Below, piece after piece: positions 4,585 to 24,039 of a DNA stretch of 26,804 bases. The notes under the pieces were generated by a model. The model was not told the origin of the DNA. It searched no databases and saw only the letters and a program-made list of their open reading frames with translations. Both the position numbers and the translations under genes were made by a program. Positions within the stretch are counted from its first letter, which is position 1; each line of letters starts with the position of its first letter. Source of the stretch: a virus; the IMG/VR virus record IMGVR_UViG_3300030450_002722, positions 1-26,804 of that record. One strand, written 5' to 3'.

Positions 4585-4641
4585 GGGTGTGGCTTTCACC
4601 TCCAAAATATTACCTCGAAAGCTACGCCCAATTTAGAGGTG
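4585..4641 (+). promoter_or_regulatory. Leader hairpin displaying anti-Shine-Dalgarno loop
   Basis: GGGTGTGGCTTTC (4585-4597) can pair over 13 bp, with two G-U pairs, with GAAAGCTACGCCC (4617-4629). The 19-nt loop contains ACCTC twice (4598-4602 and 4612-4616). Both are complementary to GAGGT (4636-4640) of the ribosome-binding site that lies just downstream of the stem. TCACCTCC (4596-4603) equals the 3' tail of bacterial 16S rRNA. Loop pairing with the SD would form a pseudoknot that hides the start of the first late gene. The structure is inferred, not folded by program. Confidence 0.5.
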
Positions 4642-4644
4642 TTT

Positions 4645-5223
4645 ATGGAAGAAGATATGATGATGCCTAACGTAGCTCCCGCTCCTATGATGGAAGGGAC
4701 TCCTATGGGGGGTAATTTATCTGAGCAAATGGCACCTGCACAAGTAGAGCTAGACCCAGCTGAAATGCAAGAGGCACAAGGAGCCCTCATGCAGATCATT
4801 CAAATAATTCAGATGTTAATTAATCAAGGTATGTCTGAAGAAGAGATCCAACAATTCCTAGCACAATACGGTATAACCGAAGAGGAGCTAGACCAAGCTG
4901 CTGCAATCTTAGGTGTCGATATAGATGCACTAATCGCAGGTGAGCAACGTATGCCTATGGCTGAAGGCGGTATGCCAGACCCCCTAGCCCCTGCACCCGT
5001 ACCCAGAACACCAGATATGATGATATTCTCAATCAACTCGGATATTAACAACCTGATGCAAGAATATAATATGGCGGTACGTAACAACGAATTTGAACGT
5101 GCTCAAGCTATAGCAGATCAAATAGACGGTCTCCAACAACAAATCATTAATCTACAAGAAAGCAAAGTACCACCTATGGCAGGTCTCAATATGCGTTTTG
5201 GTGGTAGCGCAACGGGAAAGTAG
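4645..5223 (+). CDS. Probable virion protein, zero-frame product of a frameshift pair (192 aa)
   Basis: First gene of the late operon. The protein is acidic, Met/Pro/Gln-rich and low-complexity at the N-terminus (MEEDMMMPNVAPAP). It has helical segments with an EEEIQQFLAQYGITEEELD-type repeat (around residues 68-95), a Pro-rich linker (DPLAPAPVPRTP), a coiled coil (about 130-170) and a Gly-rich end (MRFGGSATGK). The start is the ATG at 4645 with GAGGTG just upstream; the GTG at 4639 lies inside that ribosome-binding site and is unlikely. The gene ends at TAG 5221-5223 immediately after GGGAAAG, so this may be the short form of a longer fusion. Such MAEGGMP-type proteins lie beside the terminase in marine phages; the exact role is unknown. 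Confidence 0.75.
   Translation: MEEDMMMPNVAPAPMMEGTPMGGNLSEQMAPAQVELDPAEMQEAQGALMQIIQIIQMLINQGMSEEEIQQFLAQYGITEEELDQAAAILGVDIDALIAGEQRMPMAEGGMPDPLAPAPVPRTPDMMIFSINSDINNLMQEYNMAVRNNEFERAQAIADQIDGLQQQIINLQESKVPPMAGLNMRFGGSATGK
5214..5220 (+). promoter_or_regulatory. Programmed -1 ribosomal frameshift site GGGAAAG
   Basis: The zero-frame codons are ACG GGA AAG TAG, so the heptamer fits the X XXY YYZ rule (G GGA AAG) and abuts the stop codon. GGGAAAG is the same heptamer used by phage lambda for G/GT frameshifting. The -1 frame is open from 5208 to 7418 with no ATG in its first 200 nt. A weak SD-like GGTGG lies 9 nt upstream. No strong downstream stem was found by eye. Confidence 0.7.
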
Positions 5224-7418
5224 CAAGTCCACCCTTTGACGTTACGCAGAGTCCTTTTTATCCATCTCCTGAGCAAATAGCCCGAGCTGAGAAACGAGAG
5301 GCAGAAGGCCCATTATTAACACCAGCTCAATTAGCTTACCTTGGTTCAGTTTTTGCACCTGGTTCTGGTATCGCAGATGCCGCTGGCAGATTCCCTGAGT
5401 TTCCAAGTAGAGATGTGCCAGTAACTGAAGCATTATCTGGAGCACCTTTGCCTGGAATTGCAGAAAATATTGCAGCTGGTGGTATAGATAGATACTTATT
5501 TGCACCCTTACAAGGATTAGGTGTGATAGGTGATACTGCCTACGGTATTCCCGCAGTAGGCGCAGGTATTGCAGGATTGCTTAAAGCACCTGGAGCTTTA
5601 GCAGCAATCGCTGGTATTGGTAAAGCTAGTAAATCAGGTAAACCTAAAAACCTGCCGATAGAAGATAGAATGGTTGAGTTTACTTTTAATAAAGAAATAA
5701 CAGATGCTTTGGAGCCAATAAGTTTTGATCTAGAGGATTTAGATATTGATATAGATAAATTGACTGAGGTGCAAACAAATTATAGAGTTGACAAATATAA
5801 TCCAAGAGAAAGATATAAAATAGACTTAAATATAGAAGATATAGATCAAATAAAGGATTGGGTTGGAGGTGATCTAAGTAAGAAAAAAGCTGGTTCTTTA
5901 GATTTTATAAATGATATCAATCCATTTATTGATACTTTAGAAAATTCAGGTCTGTCTTTAAACTCACAAAAATATTTACAACGTTTCGCAAATAAAGATG
6001 GCAAAATTAAAGTTTATCGGTACTTAAATTTAGGCAAAGGGGGAGGCAAAAAACTACAAACAGAAACTGGAATTGCTAGCACTACAATTGATCCAAATCA
6101 TGCTGTAAATCAAGGTTTAAAAGAAAGAGTAAAAGAAATATTCATTACGACAGATGACTACGTTGCACCTGACATATTTGCAGGTAAATTTGAGAAAGCC
6201 GCAGCCCAAGAAAAAGCCTTAAAAGAGGGTACTGCAAAATTAGAAAAACTTGTTCGTGATACTTTTGTGGTTGAATATGACATCCCACTAAATCGAGTTA
6301 AAGCTTATGTACCGGCATTAAGAGCTTCTATTAGTGATTCGGCAAAAAATCGTTATGTCGAAGATTTAGCAGAAAATAATTACTCTATGACAATTGATGA
6401 AAAAATAGAAAACCTAGCTGATTATGAAGAGCTAGATATAAGTGATATATCTAGAGATGACGTAATACAAGAAGTGATTTATGAGCAAGAGCTACTAGAA
6501 GATTTAGATTATGATTTACTTCCAGCAGATGAATATGAAGTTATAGCTGATTTAGCAGATCTAAAACCTACGGCAACTTACAATATAGATGCAGATGGGA
6601 ACATTAAATCAACCACACCAATATCAAAACTGGAATCAAGTGGCAAGTTGCGGAAAGCTAGATTTAAAAAAATTGCAGAAAAGAGAGCATACGACAAACT
6701 AGGTGATAAATATAAAGCTATTAGTGAAAAGTTTTCACCTGAAAAATTATCCGCTGGGCTAACGCCTAGTGAAAATGCAGAATATACAAAAATGTTAAGT
6801 AAATTTGCTAATGATAAATATAATTTTGTTAAAAAATATGAAATTGTAAGTACAGCAGATAATATTAAAAATAAAGACTTTGTTTCTCCTGAAATACTCA
6901 TTACCGCTATAAAAGATACACAAAAAAGTCGACCTATTTTTATCGCTAACGAAGTTGATATTACAAGAGCTGTAAGAGGAGATATTTCAGAATTAGAAAA
7001 GATGATTCAAGGAGATGTTTATAGAGTAGACGCATACGATCTATATAAAAACTTTAATGACACTAGAGGTAAGTTAAAAGAATTTTATGGTGATAATATT
7101 GTTTTAAATAGATTAGAAACAAATCCAGATGCAGCACCGGGATTATTGACCAAATGGTTACCAGAGGGCGAGTTATTAAATCAATTCAAAAAAGACCCGT
7201 TTTATGCAAATGCTCAATTGCAAACCAAAAGCATTCCAATTGATGATATATTAGGGATTACGGCAGAGCCTTTAACAAATACTAGAGGCAAAGGATATTT
7301 TGAGGTATTGGTAATGAATGATGAAGCAAAACAACTAGTTGAAAAAGCAAAACCAGAAACAAAAGCAAAACCAGAAACAATAAAAGTTACTTTTGGTGAA
7401 TTTAAACCTATAAATTAA
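5220..7418 (+). CDS. C-terminal extension made by -1 frameshift (732 codons; 924-aa fusion with the 4645 gene)
   Basis: After slippage at GGGAAAG the reading continues GTA GCA AGT, giving a fusion of 192 + 732 residues. Protein-like sequence begins at once (VASPPFDVTQSPFYPSPEQ), well before the only standard start in frame (GTG 5415), so independent initiation at 5415 would discard about 65 coding residues. A Gly/Ala-rich hydrophobic stretch follows at about 290-328 of the fusion. The rest is acidic and Lys-rich, with codon use visibly more AT-rich from about 5640. Fusion residues 455-560 (VYRYLNLG, GIASTTID, then VVEYDIPLNRVKAY) recall the Arg and Ser-Thr motifs of ADP-ribosyltransferase folds, but only weakly. 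It is probably a minor virion or ejected protein. If there is no frameshift, a GTG-initiated 667-aa protein is the alternative. Confidence 0.65.
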   Translation, partial: VASPPFDVTQSPFYPSPEQIARAEKREAEGPLLTPAQLAYLGSVFAPGSGIADAAGRFPEFPSRDVPVTEALSGAPLPGIAENIAAGGIDRYLFAPLQGLGVIGDTAYGIPAVGAGIAGLLKAPGALAAIAGIGKASKSGKPKNLPIEDRMVEFTFNKEITDALEPISFDLEDLDIDIDKLTEVQTNYRVDKYNPRERYKIDLNIEDIDQIKDWVGGDLSKKKAGSLDFINDINPFIDTLENSGLSLNSQKYLQRFANKDGKIKVYRYLNLGKGGGKKLQTETGIASTTIDPNHAVNQGLKERVKEIFITTDDYVAPDIFAGKFEKAAAQEKALKEGTAKLEKLVRDTFVVEYDIPLNRVKAYVPALRASISDSAKNRYVEDLAENNYSMTIDEKIENLADYEELDISDISRDDVIQEVIYEQELLEDLDYDLLPADEYEVIADLADLKPTATYNIDADGNIKSTTPISKLESSGKLRKARFKKIAEKRAYDKLGDKYKAISEKFSPEKLSAGLTPSENAEYTKMLSKFANDKYNFVKKYEIVSTADNIKNKDFVSPEILITAIKDTQKSRPIFIANEVDITRAVRGDISELEKMIQGDVYRVDAYDLYKNFNDTRGKLKEFYGDNIVLNRLETNPDAAPGLLTKWLPEGELLNQFKKDPFYANAQLQTKSIPIDDILGITAEPLTNTRGKGYFEVLVMNDEAKQLVEKAKPETKAKPETIKVTFGEFKPIN

Positions 7419-7423
7419 ATATT

Positions 7424-7870
7424 ATGCAACCAGATGCTTTGAACTTATTAACCCAGATACAACCCGTATCTAAAATAGAGCCCATTAGCCCTACAGAAAT
7501 GCGTACTGCATTTGGCGGTCCCTTGTATCAAATGCTCAACCCTGGCGCACGACAAATCGTAGATAACCTTGGCTTGCGTGGTCAGGGTATCGGCGGGTTA
7601 GCAGCTATGGCTTTTGGGCCTGGCAAAGTTAAAGCACCAGCCACTATTATGAAACGGGTTGATAAGTTAATTAAAAAATATAGAAAGCAACGAGCTAATT
7701 ATGAAAGAGAGTTAGCTAACGTGCCCTATGATGGTATGCCAGCACAAAGAGCTGCTGATAAATATTTAAACAGTTTAAAAAAAACTCAAGCAGAGTTAGA
7801 AATGGTTTACGATAGAAATAGAGGCTTTGGCTTAGGTGATTATATAAGATCAGGTATTGCTGCTAATTAG
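7424..7870 (+). CDS. Conserved-looking hypothetical protein upstream of terminase (148 aa)
   Basis: Has a Gly-rich N-terminal half (GLRGQGIGGLAAMAFGPGKV) followed by a basic coiled coil (KKYRKQRANYERELANVPYD). It lies immediately before the large terminase, where a small terminase subunit is often found, but no DNA-binding helix-turn-helix is evident, so that label is not given. Starts 6 nt after the preceding stop with no good Shine-Dalgarno, suggesting coupled translation. The style matches the N-terminal gene at 4645 and this may be another minor virion component. Confidence 0.65.
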   Translation: MQPDALNLLTQIQPVSKIEPISPTEMRTAFGGPLYQMLNPGARQIVDNLGLRGQGIGGLAAMAFGPGKVKAPATIMKRVDKLIKKYRKQRANYERELANVPYDGMPAQRAADKYLNSLKKTQAELEMVYDRNRGFGLGDYIRSGIAAN

Positions 7871-7875
7871 TATTT

Positions 7876-9345
7876 ATGACCAACCCAAATTTTTCGCACC
7901 TCTCTGATTCTGAAATACGTGAAACCCTCATGTTGCAAGAACGGTTGCAACTATTACAACAACAAAAAGACTGCCAAGGTAATTTTTTAGAGTTTGTCAA
8001 TTACATGTGGCCAGAATTTATTTGTGGTCGCCATCACAAAATATTTGCCCAAAAACTCCAAGAGGTAGCAGAAGGTAAGTGCACTCGGTTAATAATTAAT
8101 ATGCCACCAAGGCACACCAAGTCTGAATTTTGTTCTACCTATTTTCCTGCCTGGATTATGGGTAGGCAACCCAAACGTAAGATTATGCAAACGACGCATA
8201 CCGGCGAACTTGCTGTTCGCTTTGGTCGTAAAGTTAGAAACATGATGGATACGGACGAATACAAACGTATCTTTGAGAATGTAAAACTGCAAGCTGATTC
8301 AAAGTCAGCCGGACGTTGGGAGACTGACAAAGGTGGTGAATATTTTGCCGCTGGTGTAGGTGGTGCGATAACAGGTCGTGGTGCGGACTTATTAATAATA
8401 GATGATCCCCACTCCGAACAAGATGCTTTAAGTCCAACCGCTATGGATGCTTGTTGGGAATGGTACACCTCTGGGCCCCGACAGCGTTTACAACCAAAAG
8501 GTGCTATTATTTTAGTGATGACTCGTTGGAGTGCGTTAGATTTAACGGCACGTTTATTAGAGGGTCAGAAAGAAGCGACAGCAGATCAGTGGGATATTGT
8601 AGAGTTTCCCGCTATTTTTGAAGAATCAGGTAATCCATTATGGCCAGAGTTTTGGGACAAGACAGAATTAGAAAAAGTAAAAGCTTCCCTGCCTACGCAA
8701 AAGTGGAATGCGCAGTGGATGCAAACTCCTACCGCCGAAGAAGGCTCAATTATCAAACGCGAGTGGTGGCAGCCCTGGAAAAATGAATCGTTACCGCCAG
8801 TTAAATATATAATTCAAAGTTATGATACGGCTTTCTCCAAAAAACAAAATGCTGACTACTCAGCTATATCTACTTGGGGTGTTTTTCAACCTACACCGGA
8901 TGAACCTGATTCAATTATTTTGCTTGATTGTCAACGTGGTCGCTGGGATTTTCCTGAGCTCAAACGTATAGCGTACGAAGAATATAAATACTGGGATCCT
9001 GACATGACGATTATTGAATCTAAAGCCTCTGGTACGCCACTTACTCACGAGTTACGCAGATTAGGCATACCAGTAGTTAATTACTCGCCCACTAGAGGAC
9101 ATGATAAGTCTACCAGGATGCACTCAGTAGCACCTATTTTTGAGTCTGGTCTAGTGTGGGCACCAGAGCGTAAGTTTGCAGATGAGATGATAGAGGAGTG
9201 TGCTGCCTTCCCTTTTGGTAAAAATGATGATTTATGTGATACTATGACTCAAGCGCTGATGCGTTTTAGAGAAGGAGGGTTAGTCTCATTAAATGATGAC
9301 TACTTAGAGGACAATAGACCTCCAGTTAAAAGGGTATATTATTAA
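7876..9345 (+). CDS. terL: Terminase large subunit (489 aa)
   Basis: DNA-packaging motor: the ATPase drives genome translocation into the prohead and the C-terminal nuclease cuts concatemers. Visible motifs: a variant Walker A, MPPRHTKS (residues 76-83); Walker B, LLIIDDPH (172-179); the coupling motif LVMTRWS after it; then an RNase H-like nuclease with Asp317 (SYDTAF), ESKASG (381-386) and the acidic DDLCDTM (451-457). The length is normal for the family. The reading frame ends by overlapping the portal ATG (TAATG). There is no clear Shine-Dalgarno, so it is probably coupled to the gene upstream. No small subunit gene is recognisable nearby. Confidence 0.96.
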   Translation: MTNPNFSHLSDSEIRETLMLQERLQLLQQQKDCQGNFLEFVNYMWPEFICGRHHKIFAQKLQEVAEGKCTRLIINMPPRHTKSEFCSTYFPAWIMGRQPKRKIMQTTHTGELAVRFGRKVRNMMDTDEYKRIFENVKLQADSKSAGRWETDKGGEYFAAGVGGAITGRGADLLIIDDPHSEQDALSPTAMDACWEWYTSGPRQRLQPKGAIILVMTRWSALDLTARLLEGQKEATADQWDIVEFPAIFEESGNPLWPEFWDKTELEKVKASLPTQKWNAQWMQTPTAEEGSIIKREWWQPWKNESLPPVKYIIQSYDTAFSKKQNADYSAISTWGVFQPTPDEPDSIILLDCQRGRWDFPELKRIAYEEYKYWDPDMTIIESKASGTPLTHELRRLGIPVVNYSPTRGHDKSTRMHSVAPIFESGLVWAPERKFADEMIEECAAFPFGKNDDLCDTMTQALMRFREGGLVSLNDDYLEDNRPPVKRVYY

Positions 9346-12047: not shown

Positions 12048-12256
12048 TGTCCGAAGCTTGGCTAAGTAAAAAGTATCTGAAAGAACTAGAACTTAGAAGG
12101 GAGGATGTGCAGGACACTTTACTCGCAGGGTGTAAAGACCATGCGCAATACGAATATCTGCGGGGGCGCTACAGTTCTCTGGCTGACGCAGAAAATATTT
12201 TTAGAGAACTGCTAGGAAGGGTAATACAAAATGACATCGAAGATACAGGTACCTGA
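12047..12256 (+). CDS. Small helical hypothetical protein (69 aa)
   Basis: Charged, predicted fully helical protein (WLSKKYLKELELRREDVQDT; YEYLRGRYSSLADAENIFREL). It overlaps the preceding stop by one base and the GroES-like gene by 26 nt. Function unknown. Its position between portal and scaffold fits a small head-assembly factor, but nothing in the sequence proves it. Confidence 0.68.
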   Translation: MSEAWLSKKYLKELELRREDVQDTLLAGCKDHAQYEYLRGRYSSLADAENIFRELLGRVIQNDIEDTGT

Positions 12257-12728
12257 TCACATAGCCAAAGAAATCGAAGCCGAACAGGCACAATCAGAAA
12301 AACAAGAAACCACAGAACAAGAGTCTAAGCAAGAACTGCCTTATGTTTCACAAGAGGCTAGAGTTCTTGATCCAACATTATTAGACAAATCAGTTTTAGA
12401 ACGTATGCCGCAACCTACTGGTTGGCGCATGCTAATACTACCGTACGCTGGTAAGGGCGTAACAGAAGGTGGTATTCAGTTAGTGCAATCACATGTAGAT
12501 AGAGAAAGACTAGCTACGGTTGTTGGCTATGTTGTAAAGATGGGACCTGACTGCTATAGCGATAAATCAAGATTTGATAAGCCTTGGTGTCAGGAAAAAC
12601 AATGGGTGTTAATAGGTAGGTATGCCGGAGCACGTTTTAAACTTGGAGATGAATCTGAATGCAGAATCATTAATGACGATGAAGTGATAGCAACGATACT
12701 TGATCCTAATGACATTCTTGCAATTTAG
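12231..12728 (+). CDS. Phage GroES-like co-chaperonin (165 aa)
   Basis: The C-terminal 100 residues align by eye with GroES: a first strand (GWRMLILPY, residues 64-72), then a mobile-loop region with GGIQL (80-84) matching GroES GGIVL (the GroEL-contact tripeptide I-V/Q-L), then ATVVGYVVKMGPD like RGEVLAVGNG. The end (WVLIGRYAGARFKLGD ... DEVIATILDPNDILAI) parallels GroES GDIVIFNDGYG ... EEVLIMSESDILAIV. It carries about 60 extra acidic, Gln/Glu-rich N-terminal residues. Like T4 gp31, it probably caps host GroEL to help fold the capsid protein, consistent with its place between portal and scaffold/capsid genes. GGAAGGG gives a good ribosome-binding site inside the previous gene. Confidence 0.88.
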   Translation: MTSKIQVPDHIAKEIEAEQAQSEKQETTEQESKQELPYVSQEARVLDPTLLDKSVLERMPQPTGWRMLILPYAGKGVTEGGIQLVQSHVDRERLATVVGYVVKMGPDCYSDKSRFDKPWCQEKQWVLIGRYAGARFKLGDESECRIINDDEVIATILDPNDILAI

Positions 12729-17344: not shown

Positions 17345-17615
17345 AGTAGGCACAGGTAAAAAACCAAAAGGCTCAGGTCGCCGCCTGTATACAGACGAAA
17401 ATCCTAAAGACACCGTATCTATCAAATACGCAACAATTCAAGATGCTAAAGATACAGTTGCAAAAGTAAAAAAAACAAGAAAACCGTTTGCTAGGTTAAT
17501 ACAAATATTAACAGTAGGAGAACAAAGGTCTAAGTATGGCGGTAAACCAAGGCAAGCAGAAATATTTAGACGTGGCAAGGACGCTATTAGAAAAAAACAC
17601 GGCAGAATTAAATAA
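17316..17615 (+). CDS. Small basic conserved viral protein (99 aa)
   Basis: Highly basic protein with the signature GTGKKPKGSGRRLYTDENPK near the N-terminus, then TIQDAKDTVAKVKKTRKPFA, and a basic helical end (FRRGKDAIRKKHGRIK). I recognise this signature as a family common in aquatic phages and some larger viruses, function not known. The positive charge suggests nucleic-acid contact. It overlaps the TTG-start ORF and shares its stop with the SET gene start (TAATG). Confidence 0.75.
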   Translation: MPARKKRDPKVGTGKKPKGSGRRLYTDENPKDTVSIKYATIQDAKDTVAKVKKTRKPFARLIQILTVGEQRSKYGGKPRQAEIFRRGKDAIRKKHGRIK

Positions 17616-18806: not shown

Positions 18807-19103
18807 ATGTTTAAGAGAACTAAAATGTACGCTATGGGCGGCGGAGTGAAAGGGAGAAAATACGCTGCTAAAGGCGGTGGTATGAAAAAAACTAAATATA
18901 TGGCTGGTGGCGGAGCCGCTAAAGGATCTAAGTATATGGCCAGAGGTGGAGCTATGAAAGGTTCTAAGTATATGGCCAGAGGTGGAGCTATGAAAGGTTC
19001 TAAGTATATGGCTGCTGGCGGTGGCATGAAAAGATCAAAGTATGCATCCGGTATGGGAGCAAATAAAAAATCTAAATATAGAGCAAAAGGCGGCGCAAGA
19101 TAA
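18807..19103 (+). CDS. 12-residue KxSKYMAxGG repeat protein (98 aa)
   Basis: Nearly the whole protein is about eight tandem copies of a 12-residue unit with consensus K-G-S-K-Y-M-A-x-G-G-x-M. Lysines and tyrosines recur in register, giving a very basic, Gly-rich chain with no hydrophobic core, probably disordered or forming stacked turns. GAGG lies 8 nt upstream of the ATG. It ends the small basic-protein island. Repetition at the DNA level (36-nt units) shows recent expansion. Function unknown; possibly virion DNA binding or a glue-like structural role. Confidence 0.7.
   Translation: MFKRTKMYAMGGGVKGRKYAAKGGGMKKTKYMAGGGAAKGSKYMARGGAMKGSKYMARGGAMKGSKYMAAGGGMKRSKYASGMGANKKSKYRAKGGAR
18921..19028 (+). 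repeat. Three 36-bp tandem repeat units
   Basis: Units at 18921-18956, 18957-18992 and 18993-19028. The first two differ at a single base; the third diverges only in its second half. All stay in frame and encode the 12-residue repeat. Flanking units are more degenerate. Confidence 0.9.
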
Positions 19104-19123: not shown

Positions 19124-19810
19124 ATGTCATATTTAATTTCCAACATACCGCAGTTTAAATGTTGGGTTCGTAGAGAATTTACTGCAAATCATCAAAACTA
19201 TCATGGTGAATACCTGCATGCATTAGCATTCGCAGTCAACACTATTCCAGACAGATCATTATCATTTCAAGTTGTGTTCACAGGTTGTGAAACTGATTTT
19301 GAAGGCTATCCAGACGAAAACGTACACGGTGGCGCTATGTGGGCAAGAATGCCAATAGAGGCACTTGTAGCTGACATAAAGCTAGATGAATGGCCAAAAG
19401 CTATGGAGGATCATTTAGCTCAACCTTGGGATTGTCTTAGTCATCATCATTCTGTTGTTGTTCTAGATAGAGTCAGCTCATCACCTTGGATATGCAAAAT
19501 TGGTGGTGAATTTTATACCGGTAGATATATGTTTACGGTAGATTATACAGAGCACAGTATCGCTGATGATCCTGCGCAACATAAACAAAGTCATGTGCTA
19601 TACTTAACGGACGCTGGTGAATATACTGGTAATTTTGTAGCTTTACCTAATAATAGAGTTAGAGCAACGAATCCAGCTTTATGGCGTACTGGAGAGGGTC
19701 CACCAGATTTTTCTCCAAGTCAGTATATACATTCGGCTGAAAAACATGAGAGTTATATGGATCCGGATATAACGTTTGATAATCTATATAACCAGGGAGA
19801 TAGAGAATAA
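19124..19810 (+). CDS. Conserved marine-phage protein of unknown function (228 aa)
   Basis: Begins MSYLISNIPQFKCWVRREFT and keeps a mixed alpha/beta composition: HALAFAVNTIPDRSLSFQVV, then HGGAMWARMPIEALVADIKL and AQPWDCLSHHHSVVVLDRV. The region HKQSHVLYLTDAGEYTGNF and an end rich in charged residues follow. I recognise this as a family lying before the neck genes in uncultured marine phages; no activity can be assigned from motifs. The histidine cluster (SHHHS) is notable for possible metal binding. Strong ribosome-binding site (AAGGGGGA). Its stop overlaps the next start. Confidence 0.72.
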   Translation: MSYLISNIPQFKCWVRREFTANHQNYHGEYLHALAFAVNTIPDRSLSFQVVFTGCETDFEGYPDENVHGGAMWARMPIEALVADIKLDEWPKAMEDHLAQPWDCLSHHHSVVVLDRVSSSPWICKIGGEFYTGRYMFTVDYTEHSIADDPAQHKQSHVLYLTDAGEYTGNFVALPNNRVRATNPALWRTGEGPPDFSPSQYIHSAEKHESYMDPDITFDNLYNQGDRE

Positions 19811-23211: not shown

Positions 23212-24039
23212 ATGGCTAATATAACTGGTTGGGGTCGAGGCACCTGGGGAGAAGGGCCTTGGAGTGAGCCTATACCAGTTACCCTTACAGGCGTAGTAGC
23301 TACAAGTGCGCTTGGTACTGTTTCAGTTGTAGCAAAAGCCAACGTATCCCCATCTTCTCAAGTAGCAACATCTGCATTAGGTACAGTTGCGGTTGACGCA
23401 GAGGCGAGTGTATCAATTAGTGGTCTATCATCTACTTCCGCACTTGGCACCATGTCAACAATTGCAAAAGCTAATGTTATACCGTCTGGTCAAGTAGGCA
23501 CGAGTGCATTAGGAACCATAACTGTAAGCGGAAAAGCAAATGTTAGCGTTACCGGCTTAGCAGGAACTTCAGCTATTGGTGGAGTCGGGGTAAATGGTGA
23601 TGCTGTAGCTAATGCTACTGGTGCAGTTGGATCGCTTGGCGGAGTTCTAGTTGACGTAGATGGCGAGGCTAATGTTGTAATTAATGGGGTAGCGGCTACA
23701 AGTGCAGTAGGATCAGTAACGACACATAATGCTGTTAAGTTTGGTATTGATGGCGTTGCTGTTACTGGGTCAGTAGGAAGTGTAACTATTGCATTAGGGG
23801 CCACAGTATTTCCGATAGGTGTTGAAGCAATAGGTAGCACCTTTGATGTCAACGTATGGGGTCTTGTAGACGAGTCGCAAACAAGAAATTTCTCTGATGT
23901 AACAGATACACAAACCTCTAGTTTTAGTGCAATAAATCAAACACAAACACAAAATTATGCTAATATTGATGATGACCAAAGTTCATCCTTTGCTGAAATT
24001 AATGAAACACAAACCCCAGATTGGGAAGAGGTAGCTTAA
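23212..24039 (+). CDS. Tail protein with 22-residue and 11-residue repeats (275 aa)
   Basis: N-terminal WGRGTWGEGPW motif, then about eight beta repeats with exactly 22-residue period: the TSALG-type element recurs at residues 31, 53, 75, 97, 119, 141, 163 and 185 (weaker at the end). A different C-terminal block has five 11-residue repeats with Q at 223, 234, 245, 256, 267 and an aromatic at 227, 238, 249, 260, 271 (F, F, Y, F, W). The form suggests a trimeric beta-fibre or shaft with an extended end, probably part of the tail or fibre. No Shine-Dalgarno; translated together with the gene before. Confidence 0.75.
   Translation: MANITGWGRGTWGEGPWSEPIPVTLTGVVATSALGTVSVVAKANVSPSSQVATSALGTVAVDAEASVSISGLSSTSALGTMSTIAKANVIPSGQVGTSALGTITVSGKANVSVTGLAGTSAIGGVGVNGDAVANATGAVGSLGGVLVDVDGEANVVINGVAATSAVGSVTTHNAVKFGIDGVAVTGSVGSVTIALGATVFPIGVEAIGSTFDVNVWGLVDESQTRNFSDVTDTQTSSFSAINQTQTQNYANIDDDQSSSFAEINETQTPDWEEVA

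Follow-up and report, generated by a model that had tools for sequence, protein, structure and literature searches.

We analysed a 26,804-nt stretch of viral DNA (the window; positions 1 to 26,804 of IMG/VR record IMGVR_UViG_3300030450_002722) and found that a gene upstream of the terminase large subunit gene TerL, here called P, very probably ends in a programmed −1 frameshift. Judging from the sequence and its relatives, the shift would fuse the 192-residue product of P to a 732-residue extension, Q. The site consists of the following elements:

4645 to 5223, forward strand: gene P, the putative carrier; 192-residue zero-frame product, Met/Gly-rich with helical segments, homologues in many loci.
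5214 to 5220, forward strand: slippery heptamer G_GGA_AAG, an in-frame X_XXY_YYZ.
5221 to 5223, forward strand: zero-frame stop codon TAG, 0 nt after the heptamer.
5208 to 7418, forward strand: extension Q in the −1 frame, adding 732 residues past the slip.

The zero frame of P runs from ATG 4645 to ACG GGA AAG TAG. The Q frame is open from 5208 to 7415, ends with TAA at 7416–7418 and holds 731 codons beyond the zero-frame stop. Counting from the slip, the first ATG, GTG or TTG in this frame is a GTG at 5415, codon 68 of the extension; no ATG occurs before codon 153. A first-pass annotation had described a GGGAAAG of X-XXY-YYZ form abutting the stop, a −1 frame open from 5208 to 7418 with an ATG only far inside it, and short and long forms of 192 and 924 residues; all of this agreed with our own reading of the letters and recomputed lengths (192 + 732 = 924). 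Its placing of P next to the terminase gene was right in that P lies upstream of TerL, but a 148-residue gene, R (7424–7870), sits between Q and the TerL start at 7876.

We asked how often such an arrangement occurs. A scan with a TerL alignment gave 80 loci with 84–100% TerL identity (L numbers denote related loci), and the background set comprised all open reading frames (ORFs) of at least 80 residues on either strand of the window or of 82 related loci (n=1171). An abutting X_XXY_YYZ heptamer was found at the end of 45 of these 1171 ORFs. Forty-one also had at least 90 open −1 codons, and all 41 were gene P; the locus set includes near-copies, so that the 41 sites are not independent events. 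P is encoded by 13 viral contigs, and all those that reach its end keep the stop-abutting heptamer and the open −1 frame (three of the 13 end inside P and are uninformative alone; longer copies exist of L006, L016 and the L009/L010 duplicates). The heptamer came in two types. GGGAAAG followed by TAG or TAA (G-type) was found in the window, L002, L005, L010, L015, L021, L024, L032, L033 and L034, and AAAAAAC followed by TAA or TAG (A-type) in 31 loci outside the window's clade, near-copies counted. The distance from heptamer to stop was 0 nt in both types. One further locus, L068, has AAAAAAT followed by TAA and a −1 extension of just 16 codons. The slip site is kept over the TerL tree of this marine podovirus-like lineage as extension lengths change. 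The support that the first-pass annotation had hoped for in homologous loci, a slippery site with its stop and an open −1 frame, turned up repeatedly, with G_GGA_AAG and A_AAA_AAC replacing one another at the same position.

A sequencing or assembly indel, a caveat raised at first pass, or a decaying pseudogene could mimic a frameshift, and single metagenome contigs carry that general risk. The same arrangement, however, occurs in contigs of many other metagenomes, with two heptamers and under continued purifying selection. An indel in the slip region is excluded on these grounds, and we give artefact or decay a negligible probability.

Homologues with a single frame and no slip site, which had been named beforehand as evidence against a frameshift, do exist (L037, L038, L039, L042, L049 and L069), but they join P and the downstream part in one frame. 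These in-frame fusions suggest that the phages tolerate the joined protein or even make use of it. By the TerL tree they would have arisen in at least three lineages, a number that cassette recombination could lower.

Selection on the −1 frame was then compared with the start signals around it. The window, L034 and L002 carry the same Q (94–96% protein identity), and the ratio of nonsynonymous to synonymous substitution rates (dN/dS) was 0.14–0.17 over the whole of Q and 0.065–0.11 over the ~70 codons from the slip to GTG 5415. Purifying selection acts on the codons that follow the slip and precede the first possible start. On the P side of the site, synonymous variation was found in 0 of 11 informative codon columns in the last 13 codons versus 20 of 43 upstream (Fisher p 0.004), a comparison that is indicative because the rows are related. 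The two elements concerned are:

5182 to 5220, forward strand: final 13 codons of P, with no synonymous variation in informative columns.
4635 to 4641, forward strand: Shine-Dalgarno (SD)-like AGAGGTG for the short and the long protein; anti-SD duplex −9.5 kcal/mol, stronger than at the other 11 window gene starts tested.

Most other window genes tested had anti-SD energies of −4.4 to −7.7 kcal/mol. The 732-codon frame might instead be a separate gene, started internally (at GTG 5415 or later) or by reinitiation near the stop, and a GTG is indeed present at 5415, while distant R homologues (L145–L152) have their own starts. We consider this very improbable. No SD-like sequence precedes GTG 5415 (−1.7 kcal/mol), the codons ahead of it are constrained as described above, homologues align across the position with no start there, and no start codon lies near the zero-frame stop in any −1 frame. 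The separate gene at 5415 that the first-pass annotation had held out as a refutation was not seen: L059 and L062 have homologues whose frame continues upstream as far as a slip site of their own. In relatives whose R follows the slip with nothing in between, the peptide from the slip to the first ATG is conserved (SIVEPISPTEM, VGSITPISPFEM), and L040 and L053 have no ATG anywhere before the conserved R core.

To characterise the decoding signals, we compared the sequences on both sides of the heptamer. G_GGA_AAG is highly shift-prone in E. coli, and the g-t genes of haloviruses use G_GGA_AAG and A_AAA_AAC as −1 sites in different members (PMC5009743). Across the loci, the heptamer and the stop directly behind it are constant. 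Slipping while termination is slow fits this pattern. One further element may assist:

5200 to 5205, forward strand: GGTGGT, a weak candidate for an internal SD-like stimulator, 8 nt before the slip site, with anti-SD pairing of about −6.3.

GGTGGT offers the best anti-SD pairing in most G-type loci and is absent from A-type loci.

The A-type sites have two peculiarities. Their A runs are longer than the heptamer needs, A10 in 27 of 29 sites (e.g. L050 1613–1622) and A11 in the other 2, and the codon before the heptamer's first lysine codon is always xAA, though GAG and CAG are common in these genomes. Long A runs cause transcriptional slippage (reviewed in PMC5009743), and both peculiarities would be expected if RNA polymerase slipped on the A10 run in the A-type relatives, the window's G3A3G site still being ribosomal. 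Polymerase slippage may contribute at A-type sites; it cannot explain the window's site, because this clade has G_GGA_AAG at the same place and no long run. In both types, moreover, the heptamer stands exactly against the stop, as fits stop-assisted ribosomal slipping. As an account of the A-type sites, slippage of the polymerase seems improbable to us.

Several observations weigh against a programmed frameshift or limit its reach. In agreement with the first-pass remark that no strong downstream stem was apparent, simple folds of nine downstream stretches from eight loci gave no stimulatory RNA structure (z −1.5 to +1.0 versus shuffles). With no structure and a weak internal SD-like element, the efficiency of the shift may be low. 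In the distant relatives L147–L152 and L153, the P-like and downstream genes are separate and start in the ordinary way: in L147–L152 the downstream ATG overlaps the TGA that ends the preceding gene, and L153 encodes the parts in ORFs of their own. P was not found in the GenBank phage collection by tblastn. The closest TerL matches in the phage collection, ~60% identical, were 023Pt_psg01, the pelagiphages HTVC027P and HTVC023P, and DSL-LC04; inspection of the position before TerL in these four cultured phages revealed no equivalent frameshift. The genome collection held one distant TerL relative, a Gammaproteobacteria metagenome-assembled genome contig without the slip arrangement, and a search of the window's own record matched only the window itself. 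Because the distant relatives L147–L153 have separate genes, the frameshift looks like an innovation of the window's lineage, at times replaced by direct fusion.

What follows the slip site differs between close relatives. Module sizes alternate between 730, 490–710 and 96–280 residues, and within the group of four that contains the window in the TerL tree the extension measures 731 (window), 727 (L034), 277 (L024) or 139 residues (L015). Gene R is part of many of these arrangements:

7424 to 7870, forward strand: gene R (148 residues), separate ATG 5 nt after the Q stop, no SD sequence; fused to P in the −1 frame in relatives.

Behind a G-type site we found Q alone with a separate R (window, L034 and L002), another module and then R in one frame (L010 and L032), or R directly (L005, L015, L021, L024 and L033). 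L059 and L062 carry a relative of Q (47–48% identical) behind an A-type site, fused to R, and Q-like segments occur inside other large ORFs in L111 and L113. From these comparisons, the slip site is a swap site that holds interchangeable modules. Modules of 96–730 residues at one site upstream of TerL and portal fit the pattern of variable multidomain polyvalent proteins.

A second frameshift, from Q into R, was considered for the window and rejected: R lies in the −1 frame relative to Q, but the end of Q has no heptamer. Separately, very large ORFs lie directly upstream of TerL at L094 2508–6998, L105 3609–6998, L086 369–2735 and L153 3809–5998. This family, found in the 84% TerL clade, measures ~730–1500 residues, has an N-terminus like MATRAEVLEKLKTAASEGNIREAYREFEELPIVDQ and has no Pfam match.

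We wondered what Q encodes. Neither Pfam nor PHROG gave a usable match for P, Q, R or any other extension, a PDB sequence search with a Q profile returned nothing, no Pfam Ig-like (immunoglobulin-like) domain matched in 19 extensions, and no window gene matched a Pfam MuF or ADP-ribosyltransferase (ART) model. An alignment of Q (A7, 13 rows) nevertheless has R269, S289-T290-T291 and E440-x-E442 as invariant residues. An Arg, an STS-like motif and an ExE in that order and with that type of spacing characterise R-S-E ADP-ribosyltransferases. The residues map as follows:

5985 to 6629, forward strand: predicted ART-like domain of Q, from invariant motif residues and VIA-align fold matches, mostly ARTs, to model residues 258–472.
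6018 to 6020, forward strand: R269 of the ART-like domain.
6078 to 6086, forward strand: S289-T290-T291 of the ART-like domain.
6531 to 6533 and 6537 to 6539, forward strand: E440 and E442, the ExE of the ART-like domain.

VIA-align with the Q model gave ART-fold proteins in its first 27 rows, aligned to model residues 250–476 with Z 5.1–7.9 (26 of the 27 assigned by title or general knowledge; the remaining one, IcmQ, has an ART-like NAD module). Row 28 was a chain of the cyanophage A4 pre-ejectosome (Z 4.7). Three results count against the assignment. The AlphaFold model of Q is poor, with a mean predicted local distance difference test (pLDDT) of 41 and just parts of residues 250–465 reaching 70–82; Foldseek with this model found no match below E 0.001 in PDB and BFVD; and the best VIA-align Z, 7.9, lies in the range that the tool flags as a possible common arrangement. 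Background matches can reach such Z values, and we therefore base the assignment on motif and fold combined. On this basis Q probably carries an ART domain, with a predicted enzyme activity.

Taken together, these results suggest the following mechanism. Ribosomes would load on P via its strong ribosome-binding site, and most would terminate at 5221 to give the 192-residue short protein. A minority would slip −1 on G_GGA_AAG, aided by the stop codon that follows directly, and would read 732 more codons into a P::extension fusion. The slot would hold an ART-like protein in the window, and R alone or other domains followed by R in relatives. If P is an abundant carrier, a virion or internal capsid protein, the frameshift could tether a few copies of cargo to it for packaging and delivery, as in retroviral Gag-Pol or the Ig-like extensions of phages. 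We lean towards this explanation as a whole, in which a minority slip makes the fusion and the fusion tethers cargo to abundant P. By analogy with those systems, a tethered-cargo role with packaging of the fusion into virions is a hypothesis for which we judge the case evenly balanced, and the presence of P in the virion as a carrier is a guess. Against the carrier role, P has no convincing match to any virion protein family, and a naturally occurring P::R fusion gave a low-confidence fold model (pLDDT 57).

The slip may also affect the gene downstream:

7876 to 9345, forward strand: terminase large subunit TerL (phrog_38, E 1.7e-117), starting 5 nt after the R stop, no SD sequence.

In the window the Q stop is followed after 5 nt by the R start and the R stop after 5 nt by the TerL start, and neither R nor TerL has an SD sequence. 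TerL lacks one in 32 loci (median −0.1 versus −4.4 kcal/mol for portal), and in 31 of these an upstream frame either ends 3–9 nt short of the TerL start or has a 14-nt overlap with it. The exception is L068, where the long-frame test found no upstream frame reaching the TerL start. Because TerL has no SD sequence and begins where the upstream frame ends, the slip may gate the dose of terminase: ribosomes that reach TerL by reinitiation would have to slip first. As an additional effect of the frameshift, this gate is a tentative proposal from gene layout.

The same layout would be expected if the frameshift were real but mainly regulatory, keeping the supply of ribosomes to SD-less TerL (and R) low by termination-reinitiation, with the fusion secondary. 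Three of the in-frame fusions, in which every ribosome would arrive at TerL, start it with GTG and not ATG (L037 3318, L042 5978 and L049 2189), which could be compensation. However, the R cassettes of these three resemble each other, and the GTG may therefore go back to a single change that all three inherited; L069, an in-frame fusion too, has ATG at TerL. In the 84% clade a separate large ORF lies between a short extension and TerL. A mainly regulatory role would, moreover, leave the long, selected and exchangeable extensions and the ART signature unexplained, and we regard it as unlikely. Cargo tethering, which we prefer, and a dosage gate are compatible uses of one site. That both apply, in a Gag-Pol-like slot for interchangeable virion-delivered effectors including an ART, the same slip also controlling the ribosomes that reach TerL, is likewise a tentative proposal.

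TerL is followed by portal, major head protein and a GroES-like gene. The latter, at 12231–12728, encodes a GroES-like co-chaperonin (phrog_3188, E 4e-14), as in HTVC023P-type pelagiphages. Other window genes were recorded in passing. A 116-residue ORF at 17615–17965 matches the SET domain (PF00856, E 1.2e-9); a gene of this protein-methyltransferase type is unusual in the late region of a phage. Repetitive proteins are encoded at 18807–19103 (KYMARGGAMKGS-type repeats) and 23212–24039 (TSALGTV-type repeats). The ORF at 19124–19810 falls in a PHROG family labelled ferredoxin (phrog_3704, E 6e-31) with no Pfam match, a label that may be wrong.

Well-described phage frameshifts concern mainly tail chaperones, coat or tail proteins. 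If the mechanism is as proposed, a conserved slip site that stays in place before the terminase gene and exchanges its module would put frameshifting to a new use, as a decoding slot in which effectors evolve. It would also matter for marine phage annotation, in which such ORFs before TerL, having no start codon of their own, would otherwise be truncated or missed, and the switch between G_GGA_AAG and A10C at one position would offer a natural experiment on slip-site evolution.

The first-pass annotation had compared the site with lambda G/GT. The comparison stands for the decoding signal, as both share the heptamer G_GGA_AAG, a −1 shift and short and long forms; it fails for the locus, which is not that of a tail chaperone. 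P lies upstream of TerL, whereas the lambda genes lie between the major tail protein and the tape measure; simple folds showed no stimulatory structure at the P/Q site, and the extension is exchangeable; and no PHROG or Pfam tail chaperone matched P or the extension.

Comparable in principle are the Ig-like domains added by programmed frameshifting to T3 gene 10 and to proteins of Lactobacillus phage A2 and Listeria phages (PMC5009743). There, as would hold for P/Q, a minority of the protein gains a mobile C-terminal extension, and frameshifted and in-frame versions occur in relatives. In contrast, the extensions described here reach 730 residues and carry an ART-like signature or R, the base protein is unassigned and encoded upstream of TerL and not a coat or tail protein, and the site stays anchored at the stop while the module changes.

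For the cargo, the ART Alt of phage T4 is carried in the head and injected, and delivery together with the DNA has been proposed for variable multidomain (polyvalent) proteins whose genes adjoin those of portal and terminase (PMC5512222). Q resembles these in having a predicted ART-like domain in a large variable phage protein next to packaging genes, with predicted delivery; unlike them, it would be joined to a putative carrier by a frameshift, neither in frame nor alone. PRFect predicted a possible join between a MuF-like virion gene and a VIP2-like ART gene, which in other genomes occur as single fusions (PMC10885494), although this was a passing computational remark with no analysis of site or conservation.

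In open-access full text we found no paper that mentions polyvalent proteins together with ribosomal frameshifting, and none linking pelagiphages to such a frameshift (one match appears to concern viral ribosomal proteins). The first-pass annotation had given no precedent for such a frameshift next to the terminase, and that literature yielded no account of a conserved slip site before TerL whose modules are exchanged. A parallel in logic is retroviral Gag-Pol, in which an abundant short structural protein is accompanied by a few long copies with enzymes; this is an analogy only, with no homology, and packaging is hypothetical here. Mobile C-terminal domains added by frameshifting (PMC5009743) and the lambda G_GGA_AAG site are already known, and what seems new is a conserved slip site before TerL with exchangeable modules.

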